A stretch of 35,558 bases of DNA, from positions 1 through 35,558 of the forward strand of contig SKNG01000341.1 in assembly GCA_007120685.1 (NCBI GenBank), given 5' to 3'. This DNA comes from Paracoccaceae bacterium. Its GTDB lineage: Bacteria; Pseudomonadota; Alphaproteobacteria; Rhodobacterales; Rhodobacteraceae. Positions within the stretch are counted from its first letter, which is position 1; every line of letters begins with the position of its first letter. The notes under the pieces were generated by a model, which saw nothing but the letters and a program-made list of their open reading frames with translations, was not told the DNA's origin and ran no database searches. A program made the position numbers and the translations under genes. This document shows positions 13,571-32,692 of the stretch, piece by piece.

Positions 13571-13701
13571 TCACGGGTGGCGCCTGAATGGCTTTGGCGC
13601 GCGGTCGTGCGCATGAGACGGAAAGAACCAGAAGAAACTCCGTCGAAAATCTGGCGGTTTCCGAGTATTTACCGAAAAACCGATGCGGGAAAGGCCCGAA
13701 T

Positions 13702-14688
13702 ATGGGAATGAATGCGATCTATGGTCTGGCCGCGGCGGCGGTTCTTCTGCTGCTGGCGGCGGGCGGCTGGGCGGCGTATCGGCATCTGGCCACCCCGGCC
13801 CTGCCGCCCGTCACCGATATGACGCCCAACGCCCCGCCGCTGTCGCCGCCGCCGGCGGGCATGGCGGTGTTCCATCTGGGCCACAGCCTGGTCAACCGTG
13901 ACATGCCGGCGATGCTGGCGCAGCTTGCCCATGCGGCCGGGTTTGTCGCGCATGAGCACCACCTGCAACTGGGCTGGGGCGCCACCCTGCGCTCGCATTA
14001 CGACCCGCTGGTGGAAATCCCCGGATTTGACAGCGAAAACGCCACGCCGCAGCATCGCCCGGCGCGCGAGGCCATTGCCAGCGGCGCCTATGACGCGGTG
14101 GTGCTTACCGAAATGGTGGAACTGCGCGATGCCATCCGCTGGCATGACGGCCCCGCCTATCTGCACCGCTGGGTGCAGGCGATCCGCGCCGCGCGGCCAG
14201 ATACGCGCGTCTATCTCTATGAGACCTGGCACGGGCGCGAGGATACCGAAAGCTGGCTGGCGCGGCTGGATGGTGATCCGGCCGCGTTGTGGCAGGGCCG
14301 GCTTCTGGCGCCGGTCTGGGCTGACGGCGACGCCGGCCCGGTGCATGTGATCCCGGCCGGGCGGGTGCTGGCCGCCTTCACCCGCGCCCTGGCCCGGGCC
14401 GGCGGTCTGCCGGGCATGGCTGACGAGACCGACTTGTTCCTGCGCGAGCCCGATGGCACGCTTGACGCCGTTCACATGAACGATCTGGGGAATTATCTGG
14501 TGGCGCTGACGCATTTCGCCGTGCTCTATCACCAGGCGCCGCAGGGCCTGCCGCATGAACTGACCCGCGCCGATGGCAGCCCGGCCGATGCGCCCTCGCC
14601 CGAGGTGGCGGCGCTGATGCAGGGCGTGGTCTGGCAGGTGGTCAGCGATCTGCCCGTGACCGGGGTGCAGACGGGGGCAGCGCCATGA
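13702..14688 (+). CDS. Membrane-anchored SGNH-hydrolase-like protein
   Basis: N-terminal TM MGMNAIYGLAAAAVLLLLAAGGWAAY; FHLGHSLVNRDMPAML (SGNH block-I-like) and DAVHMNDLGNYLVAL (D..H block-V-like). Confidence 0.6.
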   Translation: MGMNAIYGLAAAAVLLLLAAGGWAAYRHLATPALPPVTDMTPNAPPLSPPPAGMAVFHLGHSLVNRDMPAMLAQLAHAAGFVAHEHHLQLGWGATLRSHYDPLVEIPGFDSENATPQHRPAREAIASGAYDAVVLTEMVELRDAIRWHDGPAYLHRWVQAIRAARPDTRVYLYETWHGREDTESWLARLDGDPAALWQGRLLAPVWADGDAGPVHVIPAGRVLAAFTRALARAGGLPGMADETDLFLREPDGTLDAVHMNDLGNYLVALTHFAVLYHQAPQGLPHELTRADGSPADAPSPEVAALMQGVVWQVVSDLPVTGVQTGAAP

Positions 14689-16424
14689 AGGCAATCGGTG
14701 TTCTGGCCATCTTCCTTGCCGTTCTGGCCTTTCCCGGCCTGTTGGGCGCCCCGCCGGTGCCGGGGGCTGACGCGCAGACCGAAGCCCGGTCTGATCTCGT
14801 CCGGGTGGCCCCGCGCGAGGGGCGGCGCAATCTGGCGTTCAATCTGGCCAACAATGGCGACTGGGCCAGCCAGCAGCCCTTCATCGACCTGATGCGCTTC
14901 GCCCGCCCATGGGAGGGGCATCTGCGCGGCCAGTGGAGCGGGGTCAGCGAGGCCGAACTCATCGCCGCCGGTCATCTGGACGAAAACGGCTGGGTGCTGT
15001 CGGTGCCGGGCAATGTGGTCAAGCTGGGCGCGCTGATCCTGGTGGACATGCCGTCAGAGATGACCTCGCTCGCCGGGCGCTATCATGTGCGCTGGGAAGG
15101 CTCTGCCTATCTGGGCTTTTCGGGCCTGGCGCGGAATGTGCGCTATACCGGGCGCAACAGCGCCACCTTCGAATACACGCCGGGGCCGGGGCTGGTGATG
15201 CTGGAATTCAACCGGGGCGACCTGCGCAACCTGACCGTCGTGCATGAGCGGCATCTGCAGCGGTTTCAGGCCGGCGAGATCTTCAATCCGGACTGGCTGG
15301 CGGTGATCGGCGATGCCGAGAACCTGCGCCTGATGGACTGGATGGCAACGAATGATTCCGAGGTGGTCGAATGGGCCGACCGGCCGCGGGTCGAGCACTA
15401 TACCTGGGCACGCGGCGTGCCGCTGGAGATCATGCTGGAACTGGCCAACCAGACCGGCGCCGAGCCCTGGTTCACCCTGCCGCATCTGGCCAGCGACGAT
15501 TACATCCGCCGTTTCGGCGAGGCGGTGCGCGACGGGCTGCGCCCGGATCTGCGCGCCTGGGTGGAGCTTTCCAACGAGGTCTGGAACTGGAGCTTCGCGC
15601 AGGCGCATTGGGCCGAGGATCAGGGCCAGGCACGCTGGGGGCAGGAACACGCCTGGGTGCAGTTCTATGCCCTGCGCGCGGCCGAAATGGTGCGCATCCT
15701 GGATCAGGTCTTTGCCGATCAGCCCGAACGGTTGGTGCGGGTACTGGGGGTGTTTACCGCCTGGCTGGGTCTGGAAGAGGCGATCTTGGACCCGCCCCTG
15801 CTGCGCGCCGAGGACCCGGCGGCGCCCGCGCCCTACACGCTGTTCGATGCCTATGCCGTCACCGGCTATTTCAGTGCCGAGCTTCACACGCCTGACCGCC
15901 AGCCGATGGTGCAGGCCTGGCTGGCTGAAAGCCGCGAGCGGGCCGAGGCCCGGGCCGAGGATCAGGGGCTGGCCGATCAGGCGCGCGCGGAGTTCATCGC
16001 CGCGCATCGGTTCGACCATGCCATCGAGATGGCCGCGCGCGAGTTGATGGCGGGCGCGGTCTCGGGTGATCCGGCGATGACCGTGCAGGGCCTGCTGGAC
16101 CGCCAGTTGACCCATCATGCCGCCATGGCCGCCGCGCATGACATGGCGCTGGTCATGTATGAGGGCGGCACGCATGTCGTGGTCTCGCCTGAACAGCATG
16201 ACGACGAGGAACTGATGGCCTTCTTCACTGCGCTCAACTACAGTGCGCCGATGGGCGATCTGTATCGGGCGCTGATCGAAGGCTGGAATGCGCTGACCGA
16301 CGCGCCGTTCAACGCCTTTGTCGATGTTGCTGTCGCCAATCGTTGGGGCAGTTGGGGGCACCTGCGGCATCTCGATGACGACAATCCGCGATGGCGCGCG
16401 CTGATGCAGGCCACCGCCCCATGA
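14685..16424 (+). CDS. Secreted glycoside-hydrolase-like (clan GH-A-type TIM barrel) protein
   Basis: Signal peptide MKAIGVLAIFLAVLAFPGLLGAPP; WVELSNEVWNWSFAQ (NE acid/base-like motif) and ALVMYEGGTHV (possible nucleophile Glu). 4-bp overlap with upstream gene. Confidence 0.6.
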   Translation: MKAIGVLAIFLAVLAFPGLLGAPPVPGADAQTEARSDLVRVAPREGRRNLAFNLANNGDWASQQPFIDLMRFARPWEGHLRGQWSGVSEAELIAAGHLDENGWVLSVPGNVVKLGALILVDMPSEMTSLAGRYHVRWEGSAYLGFSGLARNVRYTGRNSATFEYTPGPGLVMLEFNRGDLRNLTVVHERHLQRFQAGEIFNPDWLAVIGDAENLRLMDWMATNDSEVVEWADRPRVEHYTWARGVPLEIMLELANQTGAEPWFTLPHLASDDYIRRFGEAVRDGLRPDLRAWVELSNEVWNWSFAQAHWAEDQGQARWGQEHAWVQFYALRAAEMVRILDQVFADQPERLVRVLGVFTAWLGLEEAILDPPLLRAEDPAAPAPYTLFDAYAVTGYFSAELHTPDRQPMVQAWLAESRERAEARAEDQGLADQARAEFIAAHRFDHAIEMAARELMAGAVSGDPAMTVQGLLDRQLTHHAAMAAAHDMALVMYEGGTHVVVSPEQHDDEELMAFFTALNYSAPMGDLYRALIEGWNALTDAPFNAFVDVAVANRWGSWGHLRHLDDDNPRWRALMQATAP

Positions 16425-17287: not shown

Positions 17288-18480
17288 GCGAAAAGCGCGG
17301 CGAGTTGCCCTGCCGCGTCGTCGATATCATGGCGGGCCAGCGCCCGGGCGCGGGCGGTGCGGCCCATCCGGGTCAGCGTCTCGGGAGGGGTTAGCGCCAA
17401 CTCGCAAATCGCATCGGCCAGTGCCTCGGCGCTGCCCGCCGGCACCAGCCAGCCGCAGCGACCCGGCTGCACCAGTTCCGGAATGCCGGCGACCCAGGTG
17501 GTGATCACCGGCCGCGCCGCCGCCATCGCCTCCATAACCACCATCGGCAAGCCCTCGGCAAAGGACGGCAGCACCAGGGCGTGCGCCTGGTCCACCTGCG
17601 CCCGCACCCCGGCCTCGTCCAGCCAGCCGGTCAGTTCCACCTGCCCGGCCATGTCATGCCGGGAAATAGCGCGTTCCAGGGCGCCGCGCAGCGGGCCGTC
17701 GCCGACCAGCGCCAGCCGCAGATCGACCCCGCGCCGAGCCGCCTCGGCGAGCGCCTCGATCAGCAGCAACAGCCCCTTCTGCTCGGCGAACCGCCCCACG
17801 CTGACCAGACGCAAGGGACGGCGCGGCGGCATCGCCCGGGGCGCGGCGTAATGGGCGGTCTCGATCCCGCAGTGCACCACCTTCAGCTTCGGCCAGTGCC
17901 GGTGATCCACCCAGCGGCAAAGCTGGCTGAGCCCGAAGCTGGATACCGCAACCGCGAAATCCGCGCGCCGCAGCTTCATGCCCAGCGCGATACGTTCCGG
18001 CCGGTCGAATTCTTCCGGCCCGTGCACGGTGAAGCTGAAGGGCGGCCCGCCCAGCGCATGGGTCAGCATCGCCACGCTCGCCGAATTGGTGCCGAAATGC
18101 GCATGCAGCCGGTCCAGCCCCAGCGCGCGCGCGCGCCGCGCCAGCCAGGCGCCCTCGGCCAGATAGATCAGATGCCACAGCCGGCCCTTCTGCGCGCCGC
18201 GCGCCGCGCGCAGGGCCAGCGCCAGGGCGCCGACGAAGCGCCAGGGCGCCGACAACGCGGCGGCCAGCAGCGCCAGCGCCAGCGCCGCCGCGCCCTTTTC
18301 CAACACGTATTCGGTGGCTGCCGCTTCCGCCTGATCGCCCTCGTCGGTCAGCGGTCCGTCATGGCGGCGCATGGCGAAACGGTGCAGCGTCACGCCGCGC
18401 CGTTCCAGCGCGCGGATCTCGCGGCGGATGAAACTGTGCGACGGCGACGGGTAGGTATTGATGACGTAACCGATCTTCAC
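17260..18480 (-). CDS. Glycosyltransferase family 4 protein
   Basis: KIGYVINTYPSPSHSFIRREIRALERRG...LHAHFGTNSASVAML...LRLVSVGRFAEQKGLLLLIEAL...LVLPSFAEGLPMVVMEAMAAARPVITTWVAGIPELV; GTG start at 18480 inferred. Confidence 0.93.
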   Translation of the reverse strand: MKIGYVINTYPSPSHSFIRREIRALERRGVTLHRFAMRRHDGPLTDEGDQAEAAATEYVLEKGAAALALALLAAALSAPWRFVGALALALRAARGAQKGRLWHLIYLAEGAWLARRARALGLDRLHAHFGTNSASVAMLTHALGGPPFSFTVHGPEEFDRPERIALGMKLRRADFAVAVSSFGLSQLCRWVDHRHWPKLKVVHCGIETAHYAAPRAMPPRRPLRLVSVGRFAEQKGLLLLIEALAEAARRGVDLRLALVGDGPLRGALERAISRHDMAGQVELTGWLDEAGVRAQVDQAHALVLPSFAEGLPMVVMEAMAAARPVITTWVAGIPELVQPGRCGWLVPAGSAEALADAICELALTPPETLTRMGRTARARALARHDIDDAAGQLAALFAQRPRTQPD

Positions 18481-18671
18481 GCGGCACCCCGGCTTGGTCT
18501 TGCGGCCCGTGACCATGGCGCTACAAGCCGAATGGGGCCATTTCAAGTTGCCCTGCCGGCGCCGCAGGGGCGTTTCGCCGAGATTGCCCGCGCCGGGCGG
18601 CCGGGTCAAATATCTGCCGTATTCCCCGGGCAGAAAGACGCCGCTACGGGGCGGCGATCCAGGAAAGACAG

Positions 18672-20036
18672 GTGACAGCGATCGACAGCGCAGAAGGCAG
18701 ACCGCAGGAAGGCGCGAAGCCCTTGGGCCTCGCGGCCCGTGTCATGCGCGGGTCTTTCGTGATGGTTGGCGGCTTTGCCCTGACCAACATCCTGCGGCTG
18801 GGCAGCAACCTGCTGCTGGCCCGCCTGCTGTTCCCCGAGGCATTCGGCCTGATGGCGCTGGTAACGGTGCTGCTGATCGGATTGCAGATGTTCTCCGATA
18901 TCGGCCTGACCCCGGCCATCCAAAGCTCCAAGCGGGGCGATGATCCGGCCTTTCTGAACACGGCCTGGACGGCGCAGGTCCTGCGCGGGGTGTTCCTGTG
19001 TCTGGTTGCGGCGGTGCTGGCATGGCCGATGGCAGAATTCTACGGCGAACCGATCCTGTTCGAGCTGATCCTGGCATCGGCGCTCAGCCCGCTGATCCTG
19101 GGCTTTGCCAGCATCAGGGTGGAATACGCGCTGCGTCACATGATGGTCGGCCGGATCACGGCGCTGGAACTGACCGTGCAGACCGTGGGCATTTCGGTGA
19201 TGCTGGCGCTGGCCTGGGCCACCGGGTCGGTCTGGGCGCTGGTGATCGGCAATCTGGCCAGTTCGGTGACGCGGGTGCTTTACAGTTGGCTGCTGATGCC
19301 CGGCCCGCCGGGACGGCCGGGTTTCGACCGCGCCGCCGCGTCAGAGCTGTTCGGTTATGGCAAATGGGTGTTCCTGTCCACCATTGCCGGGTTCTTCCTG
19401 CTGCAAAGCGACAAGCTGATCCTTGGCCATTTCCTGACCATGGGCGACCTGGGAATCTACAACATCGCCTTCTTCCTGGCCAGTTTTCCGCTGATCCTGG
19501 GTCGGTCGATGACCGGTTCGCTGTTCATGCCCGTCTATCGCGAAACCCCGCCCGGCCTTTCGGTGGAAAGCGACCGGCGCCTGCGCCGGATCCGCGCCGG
19601 GCTGACGGCCATGCTGTTTGCGTTCTGCCTGCCGCTGGTTCTGGCCGGGCACTGGCTGGTCGACTTGCTGTACGATCCCCGCTATGCCGCCGCAGGCCCG
19701 CTGCTGATCCTGCTTGCGCTGGCCCAGATGCCGCAGTTGATCGGCCTGACCTATGACCAGGCGGCGCTGGCCGGAGGCGATTCGCGCGGGTTCTTCCTGC
19801 TCAGCGCCAGCCGCGCCTGCTTCATCGTCATCGCGCTGCTGCTGGCGGTGCCGGCCTATGGCCCGCAAGGCGCTGCCCTGGCCCTGTTTCTGGCCGGCCT
19901 TTTGTCCTATCCGCTGCAGGTCCGGCTGGCGCTGCGGCATCGGGCCTGGGACGGTCTGCATGACGGCGTTGCGGCAGCCATTCTGTTGGCGCTGTTGCTG
20001 ATCGCCCTCATCCTGCATGGCGAAACGCTGCTTTGA
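18672..20036 (+). CDS. Polysaccharide flippase (Wzx-like, MOP superfamily)
   Basis: Many TM segments; RVMRGSFVMVGGFALTNILRLGSNLLLARLLFPEAFGLMALVTVLLIGLQMFSDIGLTPAIQ typical of Wzx/ExoP-type flippases; GTG start. Confidence 0.92.
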   Translation: MTAIDSAEGRPQEGAKPLGLAARVMRGSFVMVGGFALTNILRLGSNLLLARLLFPEAFGLMALVTVLLIGLQMFSDIGLTPAIQSSKRGDDPAFLNTAWTAQVLRGVFLCLVAAVLAWPMAEFYGEPILFELILASALSPLILGFASIRVEYALRHMMVGRITALELTVQTVGISVMLALAWATGSVWALVIGNLASSVTRVLYSWLLMPGPPGRPGFDRAAASELFGYGKWVFLSTIAGFFLLQSDKLILGHFLTMGDLGIYNIAFFLASFPLILGRSMTGSLFMPVYRETPPGLSVESDRRLRRIRAGLTAMLFAFCLPLVLAGHWLVDLLYDPRYAAAGPLLILLALAQMPQLIGLTYDQAALAGGDSRGFFLLSASRACFIVIALLLAVPAYGPQGAALALFLAGLLSYPLQVRLALRHRAWDGLHDGVAAAILLALLLIALILHGETLL

Positions 20037-20177: not shown

Positions 20178-21110
20178 ATGGTGAACACGCGTATCCTTGA
20201 AAAGCGGCTGGGCTGGGGTCGGCAGCATTCGGGTGCCGATGCCGAAGGGCCATCCGGGGACGAAAAGGCTATCTCCATGCCGGAAGCGCGCGGCATTGGC
20301 CACGATCCGCTGTTGCAGGGCCGGGTCGCCGCCACGCGCAGCCTGGCCGAGGCTCTGCCGGCCGCGCGGCAGGGGGCCGAGGCGTTTTGGCAAAGCCTGC
20401 CCTGCGTCGCCGACAGTGCCGATATGTTGCGCGCGCGGCGCGGGGCGCTTCATTCGATGGATGCCAACAGCGTCGCCGCCGCCGCACTGGATACGCTGCG
20501 CGCCAAGCTGCTTCAGGTCGTCAGGGAAAGGCGCTGGCGCCGGGTTGGCGTTACCGCGCCTCAGCGTGACAGCGGTGCAACCTTCGTGGCGGCCGGTCTG
20601 GCTGCCAGCCTGGCGCGCCTTGCCTCGATGCGGGTTGTCCTGCTGGACATGGACCTTGATGCGCCGTCGCTGGCAGAGCGGCTGGAACTGCCCGCCCCGC
20701 CCCATTTTTCCGATGTCTTGCGCGGGGCTGAGCCGCCGGAGGCGCAGCTTCAGCGCATTGGCCAAAATCTGGCGATCATGACCAATGATGCGCCCCTCCC
20801 GGATAGCGCGGAACTGGTGCATGGCGCGGGGCTCGACAACATGATGAGAAGCCTGACCGTCGCGCTGGCGCCCGATCTGATCATCGTCGATCTGCCGCCG
20901 CTGCGCGATGATGGCACTGTCCAGGCCATGCTGCGATCGCTCGATACCGTCCTGCTGGTGGCCGATGGCACGCGCAACACCGCGCGCGACATCACGGAGG
21001 CCGAGGGCATGCTGGAAGGGACGGTTCCGCTTCTGGGGATCGTCTTGAACAAGTCCGAAGATTCCGTCAGGCCCGCCTCTCGGCGCGTGCAGCGCCGGGG
21101 CCGGAGGTAA
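20178..21110 (+). CDS. Polysaccharide-associated BY-kinase/MinD-like ATPase homologue with degenerate Walker A
   Basis: Walker A'-like MRVVLLDMDLDAPSLAERL and Walker B-like PDLIIVDLPP and LVADGTRNTARD; Walker A position reads RVGVTAPQRDSGATFVAAGLA with no lysine. Sits next to a Wzz-like gene. Confidence 0.8.
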   Translation: MVNTRILEKRLGWGRQHSGADAEGPSGDEKAISMPEARGIGHDPLLQGRVAATRSLAEALPAARQGAEAFWQSLPCVADSADMLRARRGALHSMDANSVAAAALDTLRAKLLQVVRERRWRRVGVTAPQRDSGATFVAAGLAASLARLASMRVVLLDMDLDAPSLAERLELPAPPHFSDVLRGAEPPEAQLQRIGQNLAIMTNDAPLPDSAELVHGAGLDNMMRSLTVALAPDLIIVDLPPLRDDGTVQAMLRSLDTVLLVADGTRNTARDITEAEGMLEGTVPLLGIVLNKSEDSVRPASRRVQRRGRR

Positions 21111-21113
21111 GCG

Positions 21114-22415
21114 ATGGGCCCGGTTCAAACTGTCAGGGAACTGAAAAGCTGGCTGCGGCGCAGTTTCCGGCTGATCCTGCTGTGCGTGGTGCTGGGCGCC
21201 GTTGCCGGGGTGATTGCGGCAACGCAAAGCGAACGGGTGTATTCGGCAACCGCGGTGCTGCAGGTGGTCAACCCGGTGATCGCGGACGGAAGCAGCGCAC
21301 TGGGCCAGGCCAGCGCCCTGCGCCGCGCCCAGATGATCGAGCAGCGATTGACCACCAGCGAAAACCTGCTCGCCCTGGCCGAGCGCTATGGCCTGTTCAC
21401 CGGTCTGCCGCTGTCGCGCAGCGAGATCGTGGCCGCCATGCGTGCCTCGATCCGGATTGAAAGCGTGACCGCCGCGCAGGGCAGCGCGACCATCGGGCGC
21501 GACGGGTCGCTTTCGGCGATCATCGTCACCGCGAACCTGAACGATCCGGACGCCGCCGCGGCGGTGGCGAACGAACTGGCAGAGGCGGTGGTGGCGGAAA
21601 GCACCGAGGCAGCGCGCGCAAGGATCGGGCGTGCCCTGACGTTCTTTCAGCAAGAGGAAGACCGGATCGCCCAGGCCATCGGCGAACTGGACTCAAGGAT
21701 CATGGCGTTTCAGTCCGAGAACGAGGACTTGATGCCTTCGGCGACCGTGATCCGCCGCGAGGAACTGACCCGCCTGGAAGACGACCTGTTGCGCATCACC
21801 CGAGAGCTTTCACAGTTGCGCGCCGAGCGCGGTGTGCTGGAGGCGGATGCGGGCAGGGCGGTCAGCCGGCGCCGGATCAGCGAGCTTGACGATCAGATCG
21901 CGCAAAGGGCGGCAGAGGAGTTGCTGCTGGCCGAAAGGGTGGCCAATCTGGAAAGCCTCTTGCGGCGCGCGCCGGCTGTGGAGCGCGAGCTTGGCGGCTT
22001 CCACCGGCAGATGGAGCAGCTTCAGTCGCAGCTTTCCGACGTCGCCCAGCAACGCCGCGAGGCCGAGATCGGTCAGCGGATAGAGATTGACCAGCAGTCG
22101 GAACGTTTCGTGCTGCTGGAGGCCGCTGTGGTGCCGGATTACCCGATCTCCCGCCCGCGTCGGACGATTGCGCTGCTGGGTTTGGTGGCTGGGCTGATGG
22201 CCGGAGTGGGCCTGGCCTATCTTCTCGAGGCCTTGCGACCGGTCCTGCGCACCGCCGACCGCATGGAGCGCGAGTTGCAGTTGCGGCCGGCGATCAGCAT
22301 CCCGCTTGGCCGCCCAACGCTGGAACGGCGCAGGCGCAGGTTGATCTGGGGTTTCGGTCTGCTGGTGATGTTGCTGGCGGCGCTGGCGCTGGCCATGCAA
22401 CTGGCCCCACTGTAG
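21114..22415 (+). CDS. Polysaccharide co-polymerase (Wzz/GumC-like chain-length determinant)
   Basis: TM1 LILLCVVLGAVAGVIAATQSERVYSATAVLQVV, central coiled-coil region, PISRPRRTIALLGLVAGLMAGVGLAYLLEAL TM2. Confidence 0.88.
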   Translation: MGPVQTVRELKSWLRRSFRLILLCVVLGAVAGVIAATQSERVYSATAVLQVVNPVIADGSSALGQASALRRAQMIEQRLTTSENLLALAERYGLFTGLPLSRSEIVAAMRASIRIESVTAAQGSATIGRDGSLSAIIVTANLNDPDAAAAVANELAEAVVAESTEAARARIGRALTFFQQEEDRIAQAIGELDSRIMAFQSENEDLMPSATVIRREELTRLEDDLLRITRELSQLRAERGVLEADAGRAVSRRRISELDDQIAQRAAEELLLAERVANLESLLRRAPAVERELGGFHRQMEQLQSQLSDVAQQRREAEIGQRIEIDQQSERFVLLEAAVVPDYPISRPRRTIALLGLVAGLMAGVGLAYLLEALRPVLRTADRMERELQLRPAISIPLGRPTLERRRRRLIWGFGLLVMLLAALALAMQLAPL

Positions 22416-24375: not shown

Positions 24376-24542
24376 AGCAAGTGCGGGTCGAAGAAAGCCT
24401 CGCCAGCAGGCTCCGACCGCACAAGGCGGCAGGTGATGGCAGCAGCAGAATCTCTACTCAACCCCCTGACCGGCGGCCCAGAGCCGCGTGCCCGGCCAGC
24501 AGGGTCTTGCTTCACGCGGGACGGCGGGCGGCGCGTGCCGGC

Positions 24543-26147
24543 ATGGTGAATATCGGCAATTCCCTGGCCGTAGGCATGCTGTTGGCCTGGCCCCTGGTCA
24601 TTGTCCTGATGTTCCGCGTCATGACGCTGGAGCGTGCGCTGATCTGGTCGATCCTGGGCGGCTACATGCTGCTGCCGCAGGTGACCGAGATCAACTTTCC
24701 CGGCATTCCCGCCTTCAACAAGACATCCCTGCCCAACCTGACAGCCTTTGTGGTGATCGTCGTCATGGCCGGGCGATTGCCGCATCTGCTGCCCCGGTCG
24801 CTGATCGCCAGAGCTCTGGTGCTGCTGCTGGCGCTCAGTCCGGCAATGACGGTGCTGAACAACCTGGATTCCATCCGCTTCGGGCTGCAAAGCGTCGGCG
24901 GATTGCAGGTCTACGATCCCAGCAGATTGGTGCAGGGCGATCTGCCGGGGCTGCGGGCCTACGACTCCGCCTCTGAACTGGCGCGGCAGCTTATCATGCT
25001 GATGCCCTTCTTTCTGGCCCGCCACTACCTGCGCAGCGAGGCCGCGATCACAGAAATCCTGCGCGCGTTGGTGGTCGCCGGGCTGATCTATGCGCTGCCG
25101 ATGGTCTTCGAGGTGCGCTTCAGCCCGCAGTTGCACACCTGGGTCTACGGGTTCATCCAGCACGACTTCATCCAGGCGATCCGTGCCGGCGGCTTCCGGC
25201 CCTTCGTTTTCATGCCACACGGGCTGTGGGTGGCCTTCTTTGCCTTCATGACCGCCATGGCCGGCGTGGCGCTGACGATGACGGCGAAACCAGGCAAGCG
25301 CCGTCAGATGGTCGTCGTCACGCTGATCCTCGTGGCGCTGGTGCCGCTGTGCAAGTCACTTGGGGCGATCGTCTTCGCGCTTGCCCTAATCCCTGCCCTG
25401 CTTTTCCTTCCCGCCCGGGTGCATCTTCTTTTCGGCCTGTTGGTTTCGGTTCTGGTTCTGGCCTATCCAATGATGCGGGGGGCCGGGCTGATCCCAACCG
25501 CGCAGATCGTCGAGCGTGTCGAGCGTATCAGCGAGGAGCGGTCGCAATCCCTGCAATACCGTTTCGACAACGAAGACCGCGTTTTCGAGCATGTCCGCGA
25601 AAAGCCGGTCCTGGGCTGGGGCAGCTGGGGTCGGTTCATGCCGCGCGATCCGATGACAGGCGAAACCCGCGTGGTGGTCGACGGGCTGTGGATCATCACC
25701 ATCGGGCAGTTCGGCTGGTTAGGGTATCTGGCACTGTTCGGCCTGCTGGTGATGCCGCTGATGTCGATCTGGTGGCAGGGGCGACGCGCACAGGCCCCGC
25801 CGATCCCGATTTCGGTATCAGCGCTGGTTCTGATTTATGCGGCGAACGTGCTGGATCTGCTGCCGAACGCCACATTGGTGCCGTTTTCGCTGCTCATTGG
25901 CGGCGCGTTGCTGGGTTATGCCGAAGATCTGCGTCGGGTCCTGGACGCACGCCAAAGCCAGCCTGGGGTACGTGGTCATGACAATGTGATCCTTGGAAAA
26001 GCTGCCGCGGGCAGGCCGCCGCTTGCGCAACCCTGGGCGCCGGGCGGTCTTCTCAACGTCAGGCGCGCGCGCGCCAACCCGCCGCATCAACCGGATCAAC
26101 CGGATCAACCGGATCGACAATCGCCCGGCCGGCGCACCCTGCTGTAG
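24543..26147 (+). CDS. O-antigen ligase/polymerase-like membrane protein (Wzy-like)
   Basis: Many TM helices with Wzy/WaaL-like loop ...IVERVERISEERSQSLQYRFDNEDRVFEHVREKPVLGWGSWGRF; ATG 24543 preferred over the track start. Confidence 0.82.
   Translation: MVNIGNSLAVGMLLAWPLVIVLMFRVMTLERALIWSILGGYMLLPQVTEINFPGIPAFNKTSLPNLTAFVVIVVMAGRLPHLLPRSLIARALVLLLALSPAMTVLNNLDSIRFGLQSVGGLQVYDPSRLVQGDLPGLRAYDSASELARQLIMLMPFFLARHYLRSEAAITEILRALVVAGLIYALPMVFEVRFSPQLHTWVYGFIQHDFIQAIRAGGFRPFVFMPHGLWVAFFAFMTAMAGVALTMTAKPGKRRQMVVVTLILVALVPLCKSLGAIVFALALIPALLFLPARVHLLFGLLVSVLVLAYPMMRGAGLIPTAQIVERVERISEERSQSLQYRFDNEDRVFEHVREKPVLGWGSWGRFMPRDPMTGETRVVVDGLWIITIGQFGWLGYLALFGLLVMPLMSIWWQGRRAQAPPIPISVSALVLIYAANVLDLLPNATLVPFSLLIGGALLGYAEDLRRVLDARQSQPGVRGHDNVILGKAAAGRPPLAQPWAPGGLLNVRRARANPPHQPDQPDQPDRQSPGRRTLL
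26084..26119. repeat. 9-bp tandem repeat (ggatcaacc, four near-perfect units) in the 3' end of the Wzy-like gene
   Basis: gcatcaacc-ggatcaacc-ggatcaacc-ggatcgaca, encoding PHQPDQPDQPDRQ. Confidence 0.85.
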
Positions 26148-26260: not shown

Positions 26261-29200
26261 ATGACCGGTAGTGCAATGACAGAACCGCGGGACACCGATA
26301 TCGCAATCGTTGGTATGGCCGCCCACCTTCCCGGCGCGCCGTCGATTGGTGCCTACTGGACGAATCTGCGCGACGGTGTCTGCTCCATCCGCCGGCTGGA
26401 AGAGGCGGGGCTTCTGGAACAGGGCGAGGATCCGGCCCTGCTGCGCCATCCGGATTACGTGCCCTTCGCAGCGCCGCTTGACGGGTTTTCTGGCTTCGAC
26501 GCGGAATTCTTCGGCTTTTCACCCAAGGAAGCCGCCATCCTGGACCCCCAGCACCGGCAGTTCCTGGAGGTGGCATGGGAGGCACTGGAAAACGCCGCCC
26601 AGCGCGCAATGCCGGGGGACGGGCGCGTGGGTGTCTATGCCGGCTGCGGGATGGGCACCTATTTCTTCGTCAACCTGTGCTCCAACCGCGATCTGGTACG
26701 CGATGTGGGTCTGTTCCTGCTGCGCCATACCGGCAACGACAAGGATTTCCTGTCCACCCGCGTCAGCCATATCCTGGACCTTCGCGGCCCGGCGGTGAAT
26801 GTGCAGACAGCCTGTTCCACCTCTCTGGTCGCCGTGCATCAGGCGGTGCAAGCGCTTCTGGGTGGCGAATGCGACATGGCGCTGGCCGGGGGCGCGACCA
26901 TCGAACTGCCGCACGCGCGCGGCTATCTCTACAAGGAGAACGAGATCCTGTCGCCCGATGGCGCCTGCCATGCTTTCGACCACCGCGCGCAGGGCACGGT
27001 GTTCGGCTCTGGCGCGGGTTGCGTGGTGCTGAAGCGGCTGGCGGATGCGCAGCAGGACGGCGATCATGTCTGGGCGGTGATCAAGGGCAGCGCCATCAAC
27101 AATGACGGCGCACAGAAGGCCGGCTATCTGGCGCCCAGCGTTGAAGGACAGGCAGCGGCGGTGGCCGAGGCGCTGACGGTGGCCGGCGTCACGGCCGATT
27201 CCGTGGACTACGTCGAATGCCACGGCACCGGCACCTATCTGGGCGACCCGATCGAGGTGGCCGCGTTGACCCAGGCGTTCAGGGAAAGCACCGATGCCAG
27301 GGGTTTCTGCCGCATCGGATCGGTGAAAACCAATATCGGCCATCTGGACACGGCCGCCGGCGTGGCCAGCCTGATCAAGGCCGCGCTGGCGGTGCATCAC
27401 GGGCAGATGCCCCCCTCTCTGGGCTATGAGGCCCCCAACCCGGCCATCGACTTCGACAGCAGCCCGTTTCGCGTCAACGACAGGCTGACTGACTGGCCAA
27501 AGGCCGACCATCCGCGCCGGGCCGGGGTGAACAGCCTGGGCGTGGGCGGCACCAATGCCTTCGTTGTGCTGGAAGAACCGCCGGCGCCGGCGCCATCCGA
27601 AGAGTCCGACTGGCCGTTCCAGCTTCTGACCCTTTCCGGCCGCTCGAAGAACGCCCTGGATCAGGCCGGGGCCAATCTGGCCGCCCATCTGCAGGCACAG
27701 CCGGATCAGGCGCTGGCCGATGTGGCCTTCACCCTGATGGAGGGGCGCCGCCCGCAGCCGCGCCGCCGTGTGCTGGTGGCCGAGAACCACGCCGAAGCCG
27801 CCCGCCTGCTGGAAACCGGCGACAGGGGCCGGGTCTTTACTCATACCGCGCTGGATGACCCCGATATCGCCTTCATGTTCCCCGGCGGCGGCGCGCAATA
27901 CGCCGGCATGGCGCGCGACCTCTACGCCACCGAGCCCGTCTTTGCCGACTGGATGGACAAGGGTCTGGCGGTGCTGGAGCCAAAGCTGGATTATAACCTG
28001 CGCGCGCTCTGGCTGCCGGAGCCGGGGCAGGAAGGGGCGGCGAATGAGACGCTGAAGAAGCCCTCGGTGCAACTGCCGCTTATCATGATCACCGAATACG
28101 CGCTGGCGCAGATGCTGATCAGTTGGGGCGTGCGGCCCTCGGTGCTGATCGGCCATTCGATGGGCGAGAACACCGCCGCCTGCCTGGCCGGGGTGATGGG
28201 GTTCGAGGATTGCATCGGGCTGGTGCATCTGCGCGGGCGGCTGTTCGACACCGTGCCGGCCGGCGGCATGCTGTCGGTGCCGTTGTCGCTTCAGGCGCTG
28301 CAACCCCATCTGGACGATGATATCGACATCGCCAGCCTGAACGCGCCGGACCTGACGGTGGTTTCCGGCCCCGATGCCGCGCTGGATGCACTGGCCGCGC
28401 GGTTGGCAGGGCAGGACATCGCCACCCAGCGCATCGCCATCGACATCGCCGCGCATTCACGCATGCTGGAGCCGATCCTGGCCGATTTCCGCGCCTATCT
28501 GGCGCGGGTCCCGCTGCACGCGCCCAACCTGCCGATCATCTCCAACCGCACCGGCAAACCGCTGACGCCTGAGCAGGCGCAAAGCCCGGACTACTGGGTC
28601 GATCACCTGCGCCAGACGGTCCGTTTTGCCGACGGATTAGCGACCTTGGCCGAGCGGCCAGGCCGGATTTATATCGAGGTCGGCCCGGGCAAGGCGCTGT
28701 CCTCGCTGGCGCGGATGCAGGGCACGATCCCGGCTCAGCAGGTGCTGGCCGCGCTGCGCCACCCGGATGAGGATATCGCGGACGATCTCTATCATGTCGG
28801 GCTTCTGGGCCGAATCTGGGCGCTGGGCGGCAGCTTCGACACCGCCCAGCTTTGGGGCGAGGCACGCCGGCGCAGGGTGCCGCTGCCGACCTATCCTTTC
28901 CAGCGCAGCGACTATTTCATCCAGCCCGCCGCCGCGCAGGCCGCAAAAACGGTTAGCGAACCGATGCGGCTGGACGATATCGCCGACTGGGGCACGCGCC
29001 TGCACTGGCTGCCGCAGGGCGCGGCGCTGGATATCGATATCGAGACGGAACTGGGCGCGCGGCCGATCAACTGGTTGGTCTTCGCCGATGATGCGGGCGT
29101 CGCCGCCCCGGTAATCGACCGGCTGCGCGCGGCGGGGCATGGCCTGCAGGTGGTGCGCGCGGGCGATGTGTTCCGCCGGGTGGATGACGGCTGGCAGATC

Positions 29201-32200
29201 GCGCCGGAGCAGGGGCGGGCCGATTACGACCGGCTGGTGCAGGAGTTGATGGCCACGGGCACCATGCCCGATCGGATCGCGCATTTCTGGCTTGCCGAGG
29301 GCAAACCGCGCCACCGACCCGGGTCCAACCCCTTTCAGCACCATATGGAGCGCGGTTTCTACAGCCTGTTCTTCCTGGGCCAAGCCCTGGCAGATGAAGG
29401 GGTGAGCGACCCCCTGCACATCACCGTGGTTACCTGCGGCGCTGCGGCAGTGCGGGGTCAGGCGCTGGCCTTCCCGGAAAAGGCCACAATCGCCGGGCCG
29501 GTGGGCGTGATCCCGCGTGAATTGCCCGGAGTGACGGTGGCGACGCTGGATATCGAACCGGTAACGCGTAGCACGCCCCCGGCCGTTGACGCGGTGCTGG
29601 AAGAGATGCTGTCCACCCCCACCAACACCCGCGCCGCGCTGCGCGGCGGTCGGCGGATGGCGCAGGTGCTTCGGCCGCTGCCGCTGGAGCCGGGCATGGG
29701 GCCGGACATGCCGCAGGGTGCCGTATGGGTCATCACCGGCGGGTTCGGCGGCATCGGGCTGCGTCTGGCCGAGGAACTGCACCGCCGCCACGGTGCGAAA
29801 CTGGCGCTGATCGCCCGCACCCCGTTGCCACCGCGCGAGGAATGGGCGCGGCTAAAGGCCGACCCTGCAGACCCGCGCTCGCCACGCATCGCCGCCGTGG
29901 AACGGCTGGAGTCGCTGGGCGCGCAGGTCATGGTCGCCGGCGCCGATGTCTGCAACATCGTGCAGATGGGCGCCACGCTGGATCAGGTGCGCGCCACCCT
30001 CGGCCCCATCCACGGCGTGATCCACGCTGCCGGCCATATCGACGACGCCCCGCTCGCCGCGAAATCTCCCGCCGATATCGACGCGGTGCTGGCGCCGAAG
30101 CTGCACGGGCTGCGGGTGCTGGATCAGTTGCTGCCGGACGGGGCGATTGCCGAACTGATCCTGTTCTCCTCCACCTCCACTCTCACCACGCCGCTGGGCC
30201 AGGTCGATTATGTGGCAGCCAACGCCTATCTCAACGCCTTCGCCCAGTCCCGCGCGGGCGGCAAGACGCGGGTGATGGCGCTGGACTGGGGCATCTGGGC
30301 CGAGGTCGGCATGGCGGCCGAGGCGATGGCCGAGCGGCTGGGCAGCCCGAAACCCGCCCCGCTGCAACCCGTCGGTCTGCCGCTTCTGGCCCAAAGCGGG
30401 CAGGACGTGCGCCGGAACCGCCGCTTCAGCGCCCGCTATGACACGGCCATGTGGCTGCTGGACGAGCATCGCACCCGCGACGGCCGCGCGTTGGTGCCCG
30501 GCACGGGAATGGTGGAGATCGCTGCCCAGGCGCTGCGGGCACAGGGCGAAGAAGGGTCTTTCGAAATCCGCGACCTGATGTTCCTGCGCGCACTGGAAAT
30601 CGACGCCCCGCGCGATATCGCCGTGACGCTGGAACGCAGCGACGAGGGGTATGACTTCACCCTGCAATCGGTGGTCGAGGTCAAGGGCCGGCGCGGCCTT
30701 GTGACCCATGCACAGGCGCGGTTGGTGCTTGGCCAGACGGACGCGGCGCCGAAGCTCGACCCGGCGGCGATAGAAGCGCGCTGTGCGCAGGGGGTTGAGC
30801 AAAGCGCTGCCGGGCTGCCGGTCGCGCAAGAGGTGCATCTGGCCTTCGGCCCGCGCTGGCGGGTGCTGAACCGGCGCGGCTATGGCGCGGGCGAGGGGTT
30901 TGCGCGGCTCTCATTGCCGCAGGCGTTCCGCCAGGAGGCTGGCAACGGCTATGTTATGCACCCGGCGCTGATGGATATTGCCACCGGCTGGGCCATGGCT
31001 CTGGCGCCGGGCTATGACGTCGGCGCGCTTTGGGTGCCACTGTCTTACGCGCGGGTGCAAGTGTTCCGCGCCCTGCCTGCGCTGATCGTCAGCTGGGTGC
31101 GGGCGGTTCCCTGCGAGGCCGGTTTTGCGCGGTTCGACATCACGTTGGCCAGTCCAAATGGCACGGTCTGCGCCGAGATCACCGGCTTTTCCATGAAGCA
31201 ACTGGCCGAGGGGCTGGGCGCCCCCGCGCCCTTCCTGCCCGGTGAGATCGTCTATGAGGACGGCCCGGCGCAGGCCGCGCGCGACCTGAACGAGGCCGAG
31301 GCGCGGCTGGCGCGGAACCTGACCATGGGTATCCGGCCGGACGAGGGGGCCGAGGCTTTTTTCCGCGCTCGGGCGGCGGGGCAGGCGGTGGTGGTCGTCT
31401 CGTCGATATCGCTGCCGGAACTGATTGCCGAGGCCGAGGCCGGCATGGTCGAAGAACCGGGCGAGGGCCAGAGTTTCGACCGGCCGGATCTGGACAGCGC
31501 CTATGTCGCGCCGCGCAACGAGATCGAGGCGCGGCTGGTGGGTTTCTGGGAGGAACTGCTGGGCGTCGGCGGCGTGGGGGTGGAGGATTCCTTCTTCGAC
31601 CTCGGCGGGCACTCGCTGATCGCCGTGCGGCTGTTTGCGAAGATCAAGAAGGCGTTTGCCGTGGAATTCCCCATCTCGGTCCTGTTTGAGGCGCCGACGA
31701 TTGCCGCCTGCGCCGCGATGATCGCCGAACGCACCGGCATCGACACCGGCGCCCCCGACAGTGACGCCCCGGCAAAACCCGCCCGGCGGTTCGAGTTCCT
31801 GGTGCCGATGCATCAGGGCGAGGGAGGCGCGAAAACCCCCTTCTTCCTGGTCGCTGGCATGTTCGGCAATGTGCTGAACCTGCGCCATCTGGCCGGGCTT
31901 CTGGGCCGAGACCGGCCGTTCTACGGGCTGCAGGCGCGCGGGCTTCTGGGCGATAGCGAACCGCACAGCCGGCTGGACGACGCCGCGCGCGACTATATCG
32001 CCGAGCTGCGCCAGGTGCAGCCGCATGGCCCCTATCTGATCGGCGGGTTTTCCGGCGGCGGGCTGACCGCGCTGGAAATGGCCCGCGCGCTGCGCGCCGA
32101 GGGCGAGGAGGTCGCGCTGCTGACCCTGCTCGATACGCCGGTGCCCCTGCGCCCGGGCCTGAGCCGCGCCGACAAGGCGCTGATCAAGCTGCAGGAATTC

Positions 32201-32692
32201 AGGCGCAAGGGGCCGGGGTATCTGACCGAGTGGCTGCGCGCGCGGCGCGACTGGAAGGTCACAGAGGCGCGCATGGCGGCAGAGGCAATGGGCGAGGGCG
32301 AAGGTGCCTTTCACAACCGCCGGATCGAAGCCGCCTTCCGCGAGGCGCTGCCGCATGTGGTGATGGCCGAGTATGACGCGCCCGTGGCGCTGTTCCGCCC
32401 GCCGCTGGACCGGCACTGGAAGGTCACGGGCGGACGCTGGGTCAGCCGCGAAAAGGAGTTCGTCAGTCCCGACAACGACTGGTCACGATGGATGCCGCGG
32501 CTTTCGGTGCACGAGGTGCCGGGCGATCACGATTCGATGGTGCTGGAGCCCAATGTGCGCGTGATGGCGGCAACGCTGCGCGCCCTGATCGAAAGCGCCG
32601 AGGAAGCGCAGGCATCGGCGGGCCGGCAAAAGGCAACCGACACGCCCGCGCCCGAGGCGTCCATGCCGCAATCGCTGCGCGGGGCGGCGTGA
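26261..32692 (+). CDS. Type I polyketide synthase, KS-AT-KR-DH-carrier-TE
   Basis: KS (about 26294-27580): QTACSTSL, VECHGTGT, KTNIGHL. AT (about 27862-28770): GHSMGENTAAC, AAHSRMLEP. KR (about 29716-30310): VITGGFGGIG, HAAGHIDD, SS...VDYVAANAYLN. DH-like (about 30430-31230): HRTRDGRALVPGTG, MHPALMD. Carrier (about 31516-31730): DSFFDLGGHSLIAVRL. TE (about 31800-32600): GGFSGGG, GDHDSMV. Confidence 0.95.
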   Translation: MTGSAMTEPRDTDIAIVGMAAHLPGAPSIGAYWTNLRDGVCSIRRLEEAGLLEQGEDPALLRHPDYVPFAAPLDGFSGFDAEFFGFSPKEAAILDPQHRQFLEVAWEALENAAQRAMPGDGRVGVYAGCGMGTYFFVNLCSNRDLVRDVGLFLLRHTGNDKDFLSTRVSHILDLRGPAVNVQTACSTSLVAVHQAVQALLGGECDMALAGGATIELPHARGYLYKENEILSPDGACHAFDHRAQGTVFGSGAGCVVLKRLADAQQDGDHVWAVIKGSAINNDGAQKAGYLAPSVEGQAAAVAEALTVAGVTADSVDYVECHGTGTYLGDPIEVAALTQAFRESTDARGFCRIGSVKTNIGHLDTAAGVASLIKAALAVHHGQMPPSLGYEAPNPAIDFDSSPFRVNDRLTDWPKADHPRRAGVNSLGVGGTNAFVVLEEPPAPAPSEESDWPFQLLTLSGRSKNALDQAGANLAAHLQAQPDQALADVAFTLMEGRRPQPRRRVLVAENHAEAARLLETGDRGRVFTHTALDDPDIAFMFPGGGAQYAGMARDLYATEPVFADWMDKGLAVLEPKLDYNLRALWLPEPGQEGAANETLKKPSVQLPLIMITEYALAQMLISWGVRPSVLIGHSMGENTAACLAGVMGFEDCIGLVHLRGRLFDTVPAGGMLSVPLSLQALQPHLDDDIDIASLNAPDLTVVSGPDAALDALAARLAGQDIATQRIAIDIAAHSRMLEPILADFRAYLARVPLHAPNLPIISNRTGKPLTPEQAQSPDYWVDHLRQTVRFADGLATLAERPGRIYIEVGPGKALSSLARMQGTIPAQQVLAALRHPDEDIADDLYHVGLLGRIWALGGSFDTAQLWGEARRRRVPLPTYPFQRSDYFIQPAAAQAAKTVSEPMRLDDIADWGTRLHWLPQGAALDIDIETELGARPINWLVFADDAGVAAPVIDRLRAAGHGLQVVRAGDVFRRVDDGWQIAPEQGRADYDRLVQELMATGTMPDRIAHFWLAEGKPRHRPGSNPFQHHMERGFYSLFFLGQALADEGVSDPLHITVVTCGAAAVRGQALAFPEKATIAGPVGVIPRELPGVTVATLDIEPVTRSTPPAVDAVLEEMLSTPTNTRAALRGGRRMAQVLRPLPLEPGMGPDMPQGAVWVITGGFGGIGLRLAEELHRRHGAKLALIARTPLPPREEWARLKADPADPRSPRIAAVERLESLGAQVMVAGADVCNIVQMGATLDQVRATLGPIHGVIHAAGHIDDAPLAAKSPADIDAVLAPKLHGLRVLDQLLPDGAIAELILFSSTSTLTTPLGQVDYVAANAYLNAFAQSRAGGKTRVMALDWGIWAEVGMAAEAMAERLGSPKPAPLQPVGLPLLAQSGQDVRRNRRFSARYDTAMWLLDEHRTRDGRALVPGTGMVEIAAQALRAQGEEGSFEIRDLMFLRALEIDAPRDIAVTLERSDEGYDFTLQSVVEVKGRRGLVTHAQARLVLGQTDAAPKLDPAAIEARCAQGVEQSAAGLPVAQEVHLAFGPRWRVLNRRGYGAGEGFARLSLPQAFRQEAGNGYVMHPALMDIATGWAMALAPGYDVGALWVPLSYARVQVFRALPALIVSWVRAVPCEAGFARFDITLASPNGTVCAEITGFSMKQLAEGLGAPAPFLPGEIVYEDGPAQAARDLNEAEARLARNLTMGIRPDEGAEAFFRARAAGQAVVVVSSISLPELIAEAEAGMVEEPGEGQSFDRPDLDSAYVAPRNEIEARLVGFWEELLGVGGVGVEDSFFDLGGHSLIAVRLFAKIKKAFAVEFPISVLFEAPTIAACAAMIAERTGIDTGAPDSDAPAKPARRFEFLVPMHQGEGGAKTPFFLVAGMFGNVLNLRHLAGLLGRDRPFYGLQARGLLGDSEPHSRLDDAARDYIAELRQVQPHGPYLIGGFSGGGLTALEMARALRAEGEEVALLTLLDTPVPLRPGLSRADKALIKLQEFRRKGPGYLTEWLRARRDWKVTEARMAAEAMGEGEGAFHNRRIEAAFREALPHVVMAEYDAPVALFRPPLDRHWKVTGGRWVSREKEFVSPDNDWSRWMPRLSVHEVPGDHDSMVLEPNVRVMAATLRALIESAEEAQASAGRQKATDTPAPEASMPQSLRGAA

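Follow-up and report, generated by a model that had tools for sequence, protein, structure and literature searches.

The window analysed here, 35,558 nucleotides of contig SKNG01000341.1 from a Paracoccaceae bacterium of the genus Pararhodobacter, contains a polysaccharide gene cluster in which a 310-aa protein is encoded at 20178..21110 (+ strand, stop codon inside the range). 'BY pseudokinase' is the best reading of this protein from its residues. Upstream lies the gene for a Wzx flippase (18672..20036, +), assigned by Pfam and conserved synteny, and the gene for a Wzz-type co-polymerase of the PCP-2 class (21114..22415, +; 433 aa) starts 3 bases past the pseudokinase stop. A Wzy-type O-antigen ligase/polymerase (24381..26147, +; Pfam Wzy_C 1.2e-7) and glycosyltransferases complete the signature of a Wzx/Wzy-dependent pathway; an export (OPX) protein is encoded on other contigs only. 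Across the 14 genus loci that were read, Wzx, pseudokinase, and Wzz follow one another in this order behind upstream genes that the loci share, except that locus L033 gave no Wzx match. The same genome (G000) encodes two more Wzz-like proteins on contigs C227 and C360 (loci L206 and L208; frames of 529 and 542 aa), and a single BY-kinase-like match.

Several neighbours are of interest in their own right. Beside Wzy is a 2143-aa type I polyketide synthase (26261-32692, +; KS-AT-KR-DH-ACP-thioesterase), whose location inside a polysaccharide cluster suggests that the polymer is modified with acyl or polyketide groups; matches 69-87% identical to it follow pseudokinase-Wzz-Wzy in several relatives, including Natronohydrobacter (L046 and L049). 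A 364-aa protein with one tyrosine (17581-18675, +) is conserved in the cluster across the genus at 40-57% identity, as are, with good conservation, proteins of 366 and 579 aa (13588-14688 and 14685-16424, +); none of the three has a Pfam or NCBIfam match.

The start of the pseudokinase gene is supported by an N-terminal motif conserved in the genus alignment, MVNTRILExRLGW (20178..20216, +), which backs the ATG at 20178. The Walker A position is occupied by TAPQRDSGATF (residues 126-136; 20553..20585, +), with Ala134 (codon GCA, 20577-20579) in place of the lysine, as seen both in the translation and in a phmmer alignment to Etk. Walker A' (VVLLDMDLDAPS, residues 153-164; 20634..20669, +) retains both aspartates, D157 and D159, and Walker B (LIIVDLPP, residues 234-241; 20877..20900, +) retains D238. 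The tyrosine cluster is replaced by a C-terminal tail, DSVRPASRRVQRRGRR (21060..21107, +), that has seven arginines and no tyrosine and ends in RRVQRRGRR. The translation contains no tyrosine at all, where 5.4 would be expected from the 1.75% tyrosine content of neighbouring genes (probability of none, ~0.004). The altered Walker A, the retained Walker A' and B, the absence of tyrosine, and the Arg-rich tail had been described in a sequence-only reading of this DNA, and each one stands. A helix at residues 99-118 (20472..20531, +) is the counterpart of the helix carrying the EX2RX2R octamer-interface motif (described in PMC3795738); it carries A102, D105, and R108, of which R108 is invariant family-wide, and the motif is altered throughout the family, Lys-intact members included.

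The BY-kinase-like identity proposed at the outset is backed by profile, alignment, and structural comparisons. Among PDB chains, phmmer aligns A134 with the P-loop lysine of Etk (3cio, 1.7e-9), setting 'dsgatf' over 'DSGKTF'. An AlphaFold2 model built from 78 homologues has pLDDT >90 across most of residues 61-290; when it is compared with the PDB by Foldseek, the top 50 matches are BY-kinases without exception, headed by the Wzc kinase (8e-14). NCBIfam gives TIGR03018 (XrtA-associated tyrosine autokinase; 2e-17) and TIGR01007 (5e-14), both far under their curated cut-offs (for TIGR03018, 63 bits against 231). A ParA/MinD-type ATPase was considered and rejected, given its weaker family scores and the uniformly BY-kinase structural matches. 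Compared with an active autokinase, the protein has the BY-kinase fold (in the predicted structure) and the acidic residues of Walker A' and B; it lacks the Walker A lysine, the C-terminal tyrosine cluster, and the EX2RX2R motif.

Loss of the catalytic lysine and the tyrosine cluster is a property of the genus. Full-length orthologues are present in 16 of 19 Pararhodobacter genomes (window included), the other 15 being 46-65% identical to the window protein. The lysine position holds arginine in 10, alanine in 4, serine in 1, and cysteine in 1, and lysine in none; each orthologue has zero or one tyrosine and none has a tyrosine cluster. The codons used elsewhere in the genus (CGC, CGG, GCC, TGC, or AGC) would, like that of the window protein, each need two or three substitutions to become a lysine codon, so a single read error is no explanation, and a sequencing error or local mutation is ruled out by the 16 orthologues, several of them from named isolates. 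Orthologues with an intact P-loop and tyrosines, which would have spoken for such an error, do not occur within the genus; such forms appear only among remoter homologues (about 28-41% identity). R130 is kept in 15 of the 16 members. When L036-L044 are set beside the window, Pararhodobacter splits at the lysine position into an Arg group and an Ala/Ser/Cys group, and the Arg group has several extra kilobases between Wzz and the next glycosyltransferase.

A decaying, functionless relic, as lost catalytic residues and a variable N-terminal region might suggest, is hardly credible for a gene that is full-length and syntenic in 16 of 19 genomes, conserves its remaining Walker positions, and has dN/dS well under 1 (about 0.07-0.30 by Nei-Gojobori in nine pairs of Lys-less genes), which indicates purifying selection.

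The pattern extends beyond the genus. By profile search, 231 of the 398 genomes in the bacterial family to which the window belongs yielded homologues; with the genus alignment as query homologues were recovered from genome contigs, and a single protein as query gave none. Among 136 distinct proteins, a non-random sample taken from the top of the ranking and from earlier searches, the lysine position is K in 75, A in 31, R in 11, T in 11, S in 5, and C, N, or G in one each. Exclusion of a fragment (L051) leaves 60 Lys-less proteins for later counts; that fragment comes from a record titled Exiguobacterium profundum (MAG; CP059262.1), which is probably mislabelled or chimeric because it contains a Rhodobacteraceae-like homologue. 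Two or more tail tyrosines are found in 58 of the 75 Lys-intact proteins versus none of the 60 Lys-less ones (Fisher p 5e-23, uncorrected for kinship, the independent pairs being too few for a kinship-corrected decision). With few or no exceptions, Lys-less members keep the P-loop glycine (G133), S/T135, D157, and D238; D159 is retained in the genus and is asparagine in 84% of other Lys-less proteins. The association with a Wzz partner that had been proposed from the window holds in all 61 Lys-less loci of the sample, each of which has a Wzz gene immediately downstream in the same orientation. The identical gene order is found for 16 Lys-intact genes, whose products have one or two tail tyrosines apiece.

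The lysine has likely been lost more than once in the family, judging from the tree of Lys-less and Lys-intact homologues. The best tree requires four changes between presence and absence of the lysine (3-5 across bootstraps), two of which are forced by well-supported branches, and a single Lys-less clade, and hence one origin of the loss, is rejected at the borderline (p-AU 0.044). Most homologues outside the family retain the lysine. In another alphaproteobacterial family, BY-kinase homologues at L187-L190 and L204 (9789-10631) have valine (alanine in one) at the Walker A lysine position and no tail tyrosine, and probably form a separate pseudokinase lineage; the L204 homologue adjoins an XrtA/PEP-CTERM ATPase.

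The Wzz partner is recognized by Pfam Wzz (6.5e-7) and TIGR03007 (8.4e-26; 90 bits versus a cut-off of 279), and its AlphaFold2 model (pLDDT 89) finds Wzc as best Foldseek match (6.5e-11), with WzzE also matched. The 433-aa protein has no kinase domain of its own, and three membrane helices are predicted, the third at residues 410-433 (22341..22412, +; helix prediction and model). Between helices 2 and 3 is a cytoplasmic juxtamembrane segment (PVLRTADRMERELQLRPAISIP...; 22230..22340, +), which is the best-conserved part of the protein in the genus (80% versus a mean of 69%) and has near-invariant residues family-wide. The CapA activator segment and the Wzc juxtamembrane region contact their kinases (PMC3795738); since the segment of the window's Wzz is placed like these, it is a fair inference that it is the binding site of the pseudokinase.

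The surroundings of the fused kinases of the genus differ from those of the pseudokinase. Canonical fused Wzc proteins over the TIGR01007 cut-off occur in 8 of 19 genus genomes, and in 7 of these 8 the kinase domain has a strong low-molecular-weight (LMW) phosphatase gene at a distance of about 1.6 kb; no LMW-phosphatase gene was found near the pseudokinase at any of the 16 genus loci. The contrast speaks for a pseudokinase locus without a phosphorylation cycle, but it is valid only with the genus's own fused Wzc as reference, because the stand-alone Lys-intact BY-kinases of the family have no phosphatase gene nearby either; for that reason the presence of such a gene was dropped as a sign of kinase activity in general. 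In three genomes rated 100% complete (G005, G008, and G016) the pseudokinase is present, and both a canonical Wzc over the cut-off and a strong Wzb-type phosphatase are missing. Since the genome from which the window comes is 80% complete, absences there say little.

The BY-kinase fold and the genus-wide loss of lysine and tyrosine cluster sustain the earlier reading of the protein as a pseudokinase; with both missing, kinase activity would be expected to be absent, and the likeliest function is that of a binding partner, not of an enzyme. The further suggestion of that reading, control of the co-polymerase by another mechanism, is a hypothesis. The favored explanation, to which we assign a probability of roughly 0.7 (0.72), is that it is a phosphorylation-independent scaffold of a bipartite PCP-2 co-polymerase, probably bound to Wzz. 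The pseudokinase would dock on the conserved cytoplasmic segment between helices 2 and 3 of its partner and would stabilize or template the Wzz oligomer; polymerization in the Wzx/Wzy pathway could then run without a tyrosine phosphorylation cycle. In Wzc, the unphosphorylated form is an octamer that falls apart as the tyrosine tail becomes phosphorylated, and the octamers of the K540M mutant, which is no longer phosphorylated, are homogeneous (PMC8285477); in terms of its residues, the window protein is a natural equivalent of K540M combined with removal of the tail. The scaffold role itself is suggested by analogy with EcpK/EpsV and HfsB/HfsA. Counting against this explanation, the canonical octamer motif is altered in Lys-intact members too, and conservation of the Walker A' and B aspartates, the P-loop glycine, and Ser/Thr goes beyond what a pure scaffold needs, so that a nucleotide-dependent role is possible.

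That role could be a nucleotide-gated switch, in which binding of Mg-ADP or Mg-ATP alters the grip on the Wzz oligomer without phosphorylation; this would refine the scaffold explanation and does not exclude it. Loss of the lysine does not imply loss of ATP binding, as the structures of BY-kinases with lysine-to-methionine substitutions, CapA1B2 K55M and Wzc K540M, contain Mg-ADP (PMC3795738; PDB titles of 2VED, 3LA6, and 9exq). The conservation of D157, D238, G133, and S/T135 in nearly all Lys-less members, arginine at the lysine position in ten genus members, and R130 in 15 of 16 point the same way. However, asparagine in place of the second Walker A' aspartate in most Lys-less proteins outside the genus, and drift of the lysine position among A, T, S, N, G, R, and C, suggest relaxed constraint, and a switch of this kind is a tentative proposal.

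The retained active-site acidic residues and P-loop Ser/Thr would also fit an active kinase or ATPase of unusual chemistry that targets Tyr, Ser, or Thr of another protein, but Wzc phosphorylation needs the P-loop lysine K540 (PMC8285477), the protein contains no tyrosine target of its own, and the replacing residue varies across clades, all of which makes such activity improbable. The fused Wzc of some genus genomes and the active/inactive pairing suggested for CapB1/CapB2 (PMC3795738) would fit a role as modulator of a separate, canonical Wzc-type kinase in the same cell; this role is very improbable, given that the pseudokinase has a Wzz and a Wzx of its own at its locus and is kept in four genomes (G001, G005, G008, and G016; 99-100% complete) that have no canonical Wzc.

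In the standard model, co-polymerases of the PCP-2 type require cycles of tyrosine phosphorylation. The Rhodobacteraceae offer close relatives with and without the catalytic lysine and tyrosine cluster in the same gene pair, in a large and cultivable family, which makes it testable whether the phosphorylation cycle or mere physical contact matters. A broader proposal, which we regard as speculative, is that repeated losses of the lysine and tyrosine cluster, with the acidic residues and Wzz retained, led the stand-alone BY-kinases of this family from Tyr-rich active kinases through forms with one or two tyrosines to Tyr-free, perhaps nucleotide-gated, non-phosphorylating regulators. No pseudokinase from Rhodobacteraceae was found in the open-licence literature, and a graded series within one bacterial family, in which lysine and tyrosines are lost and the active-site aspartates kept, may be new.

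Among known systems, Wzc of Escherichia coli (PCP-2a) shares its kinase fold with the pseudokinase and its Wzz-like fold with the partner, but is fused, catalytically active, and controlled by a phosphatase. TIGR03018 with TIGR03007 provides the best family profiles for the two proteins, both of which nevertheless score far under the curated cut-offs. CapA/CapB of Staphylococcus aureus and other PCP-2b/BY-kinase pairs resemble the window pair in that the kinase-fold protein is separate from its modulator, a transmembrane protein bearing a juxtamembrane segment on the cytoplasmic side; CapB2, however, is active, with Lys55 and a tyrosine cluster (PMC3795738). Closer are the published BY pseudokinases HfsB and EcpK (PMC12004946). 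HfsB/HfsA of Caulobacter crescentus is likewise an alphaproteobacterial pair of a stand-alone pseudokinase without a tyrosine tail and a kinase-less PCP-2 (PMC12004946), but serves the holdfast pathway; HfsB is compared here by its published description alone. The C-terminus of EcpK of Myxococcus xanthus is rich in Lys and Arg; the protein interacts with EpsV in two-hybrid assays and is required for EPS, and a scaffold role has been proposed for the pair (PMC12004946). EcpK/EpsV and the window pair have in common a stand-alone BY-kinase fold without Walker A lysine or tyrosine tail, a basic C-terminus, a PCP-2 partner without kinase domain, and a Wzx/Wzy pathway. They differ in that EcpK has none of the three Walker motifs and is missing several elements of secondary structure, whereas the window protein keeps A' and B; in that the ecpK gene is apart from epsV, whereas the window's pseudokinase and Wzz genes are adjacent; and in that the EcpK-EpsV interaction has been demonstrated, whereas contact within the window pair is predicted. 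With a kinase fold lacking catalytic lysine and tyrosine tail, a kinase-less PCP-2, and a Wzx/Wzy pathway, the window pair belongs by its sequence features to a kind already known from EcpK/EpsV and HfsB/HfsA, that of the stand-alone BY pseudokinase in a bipartite PCP-2.
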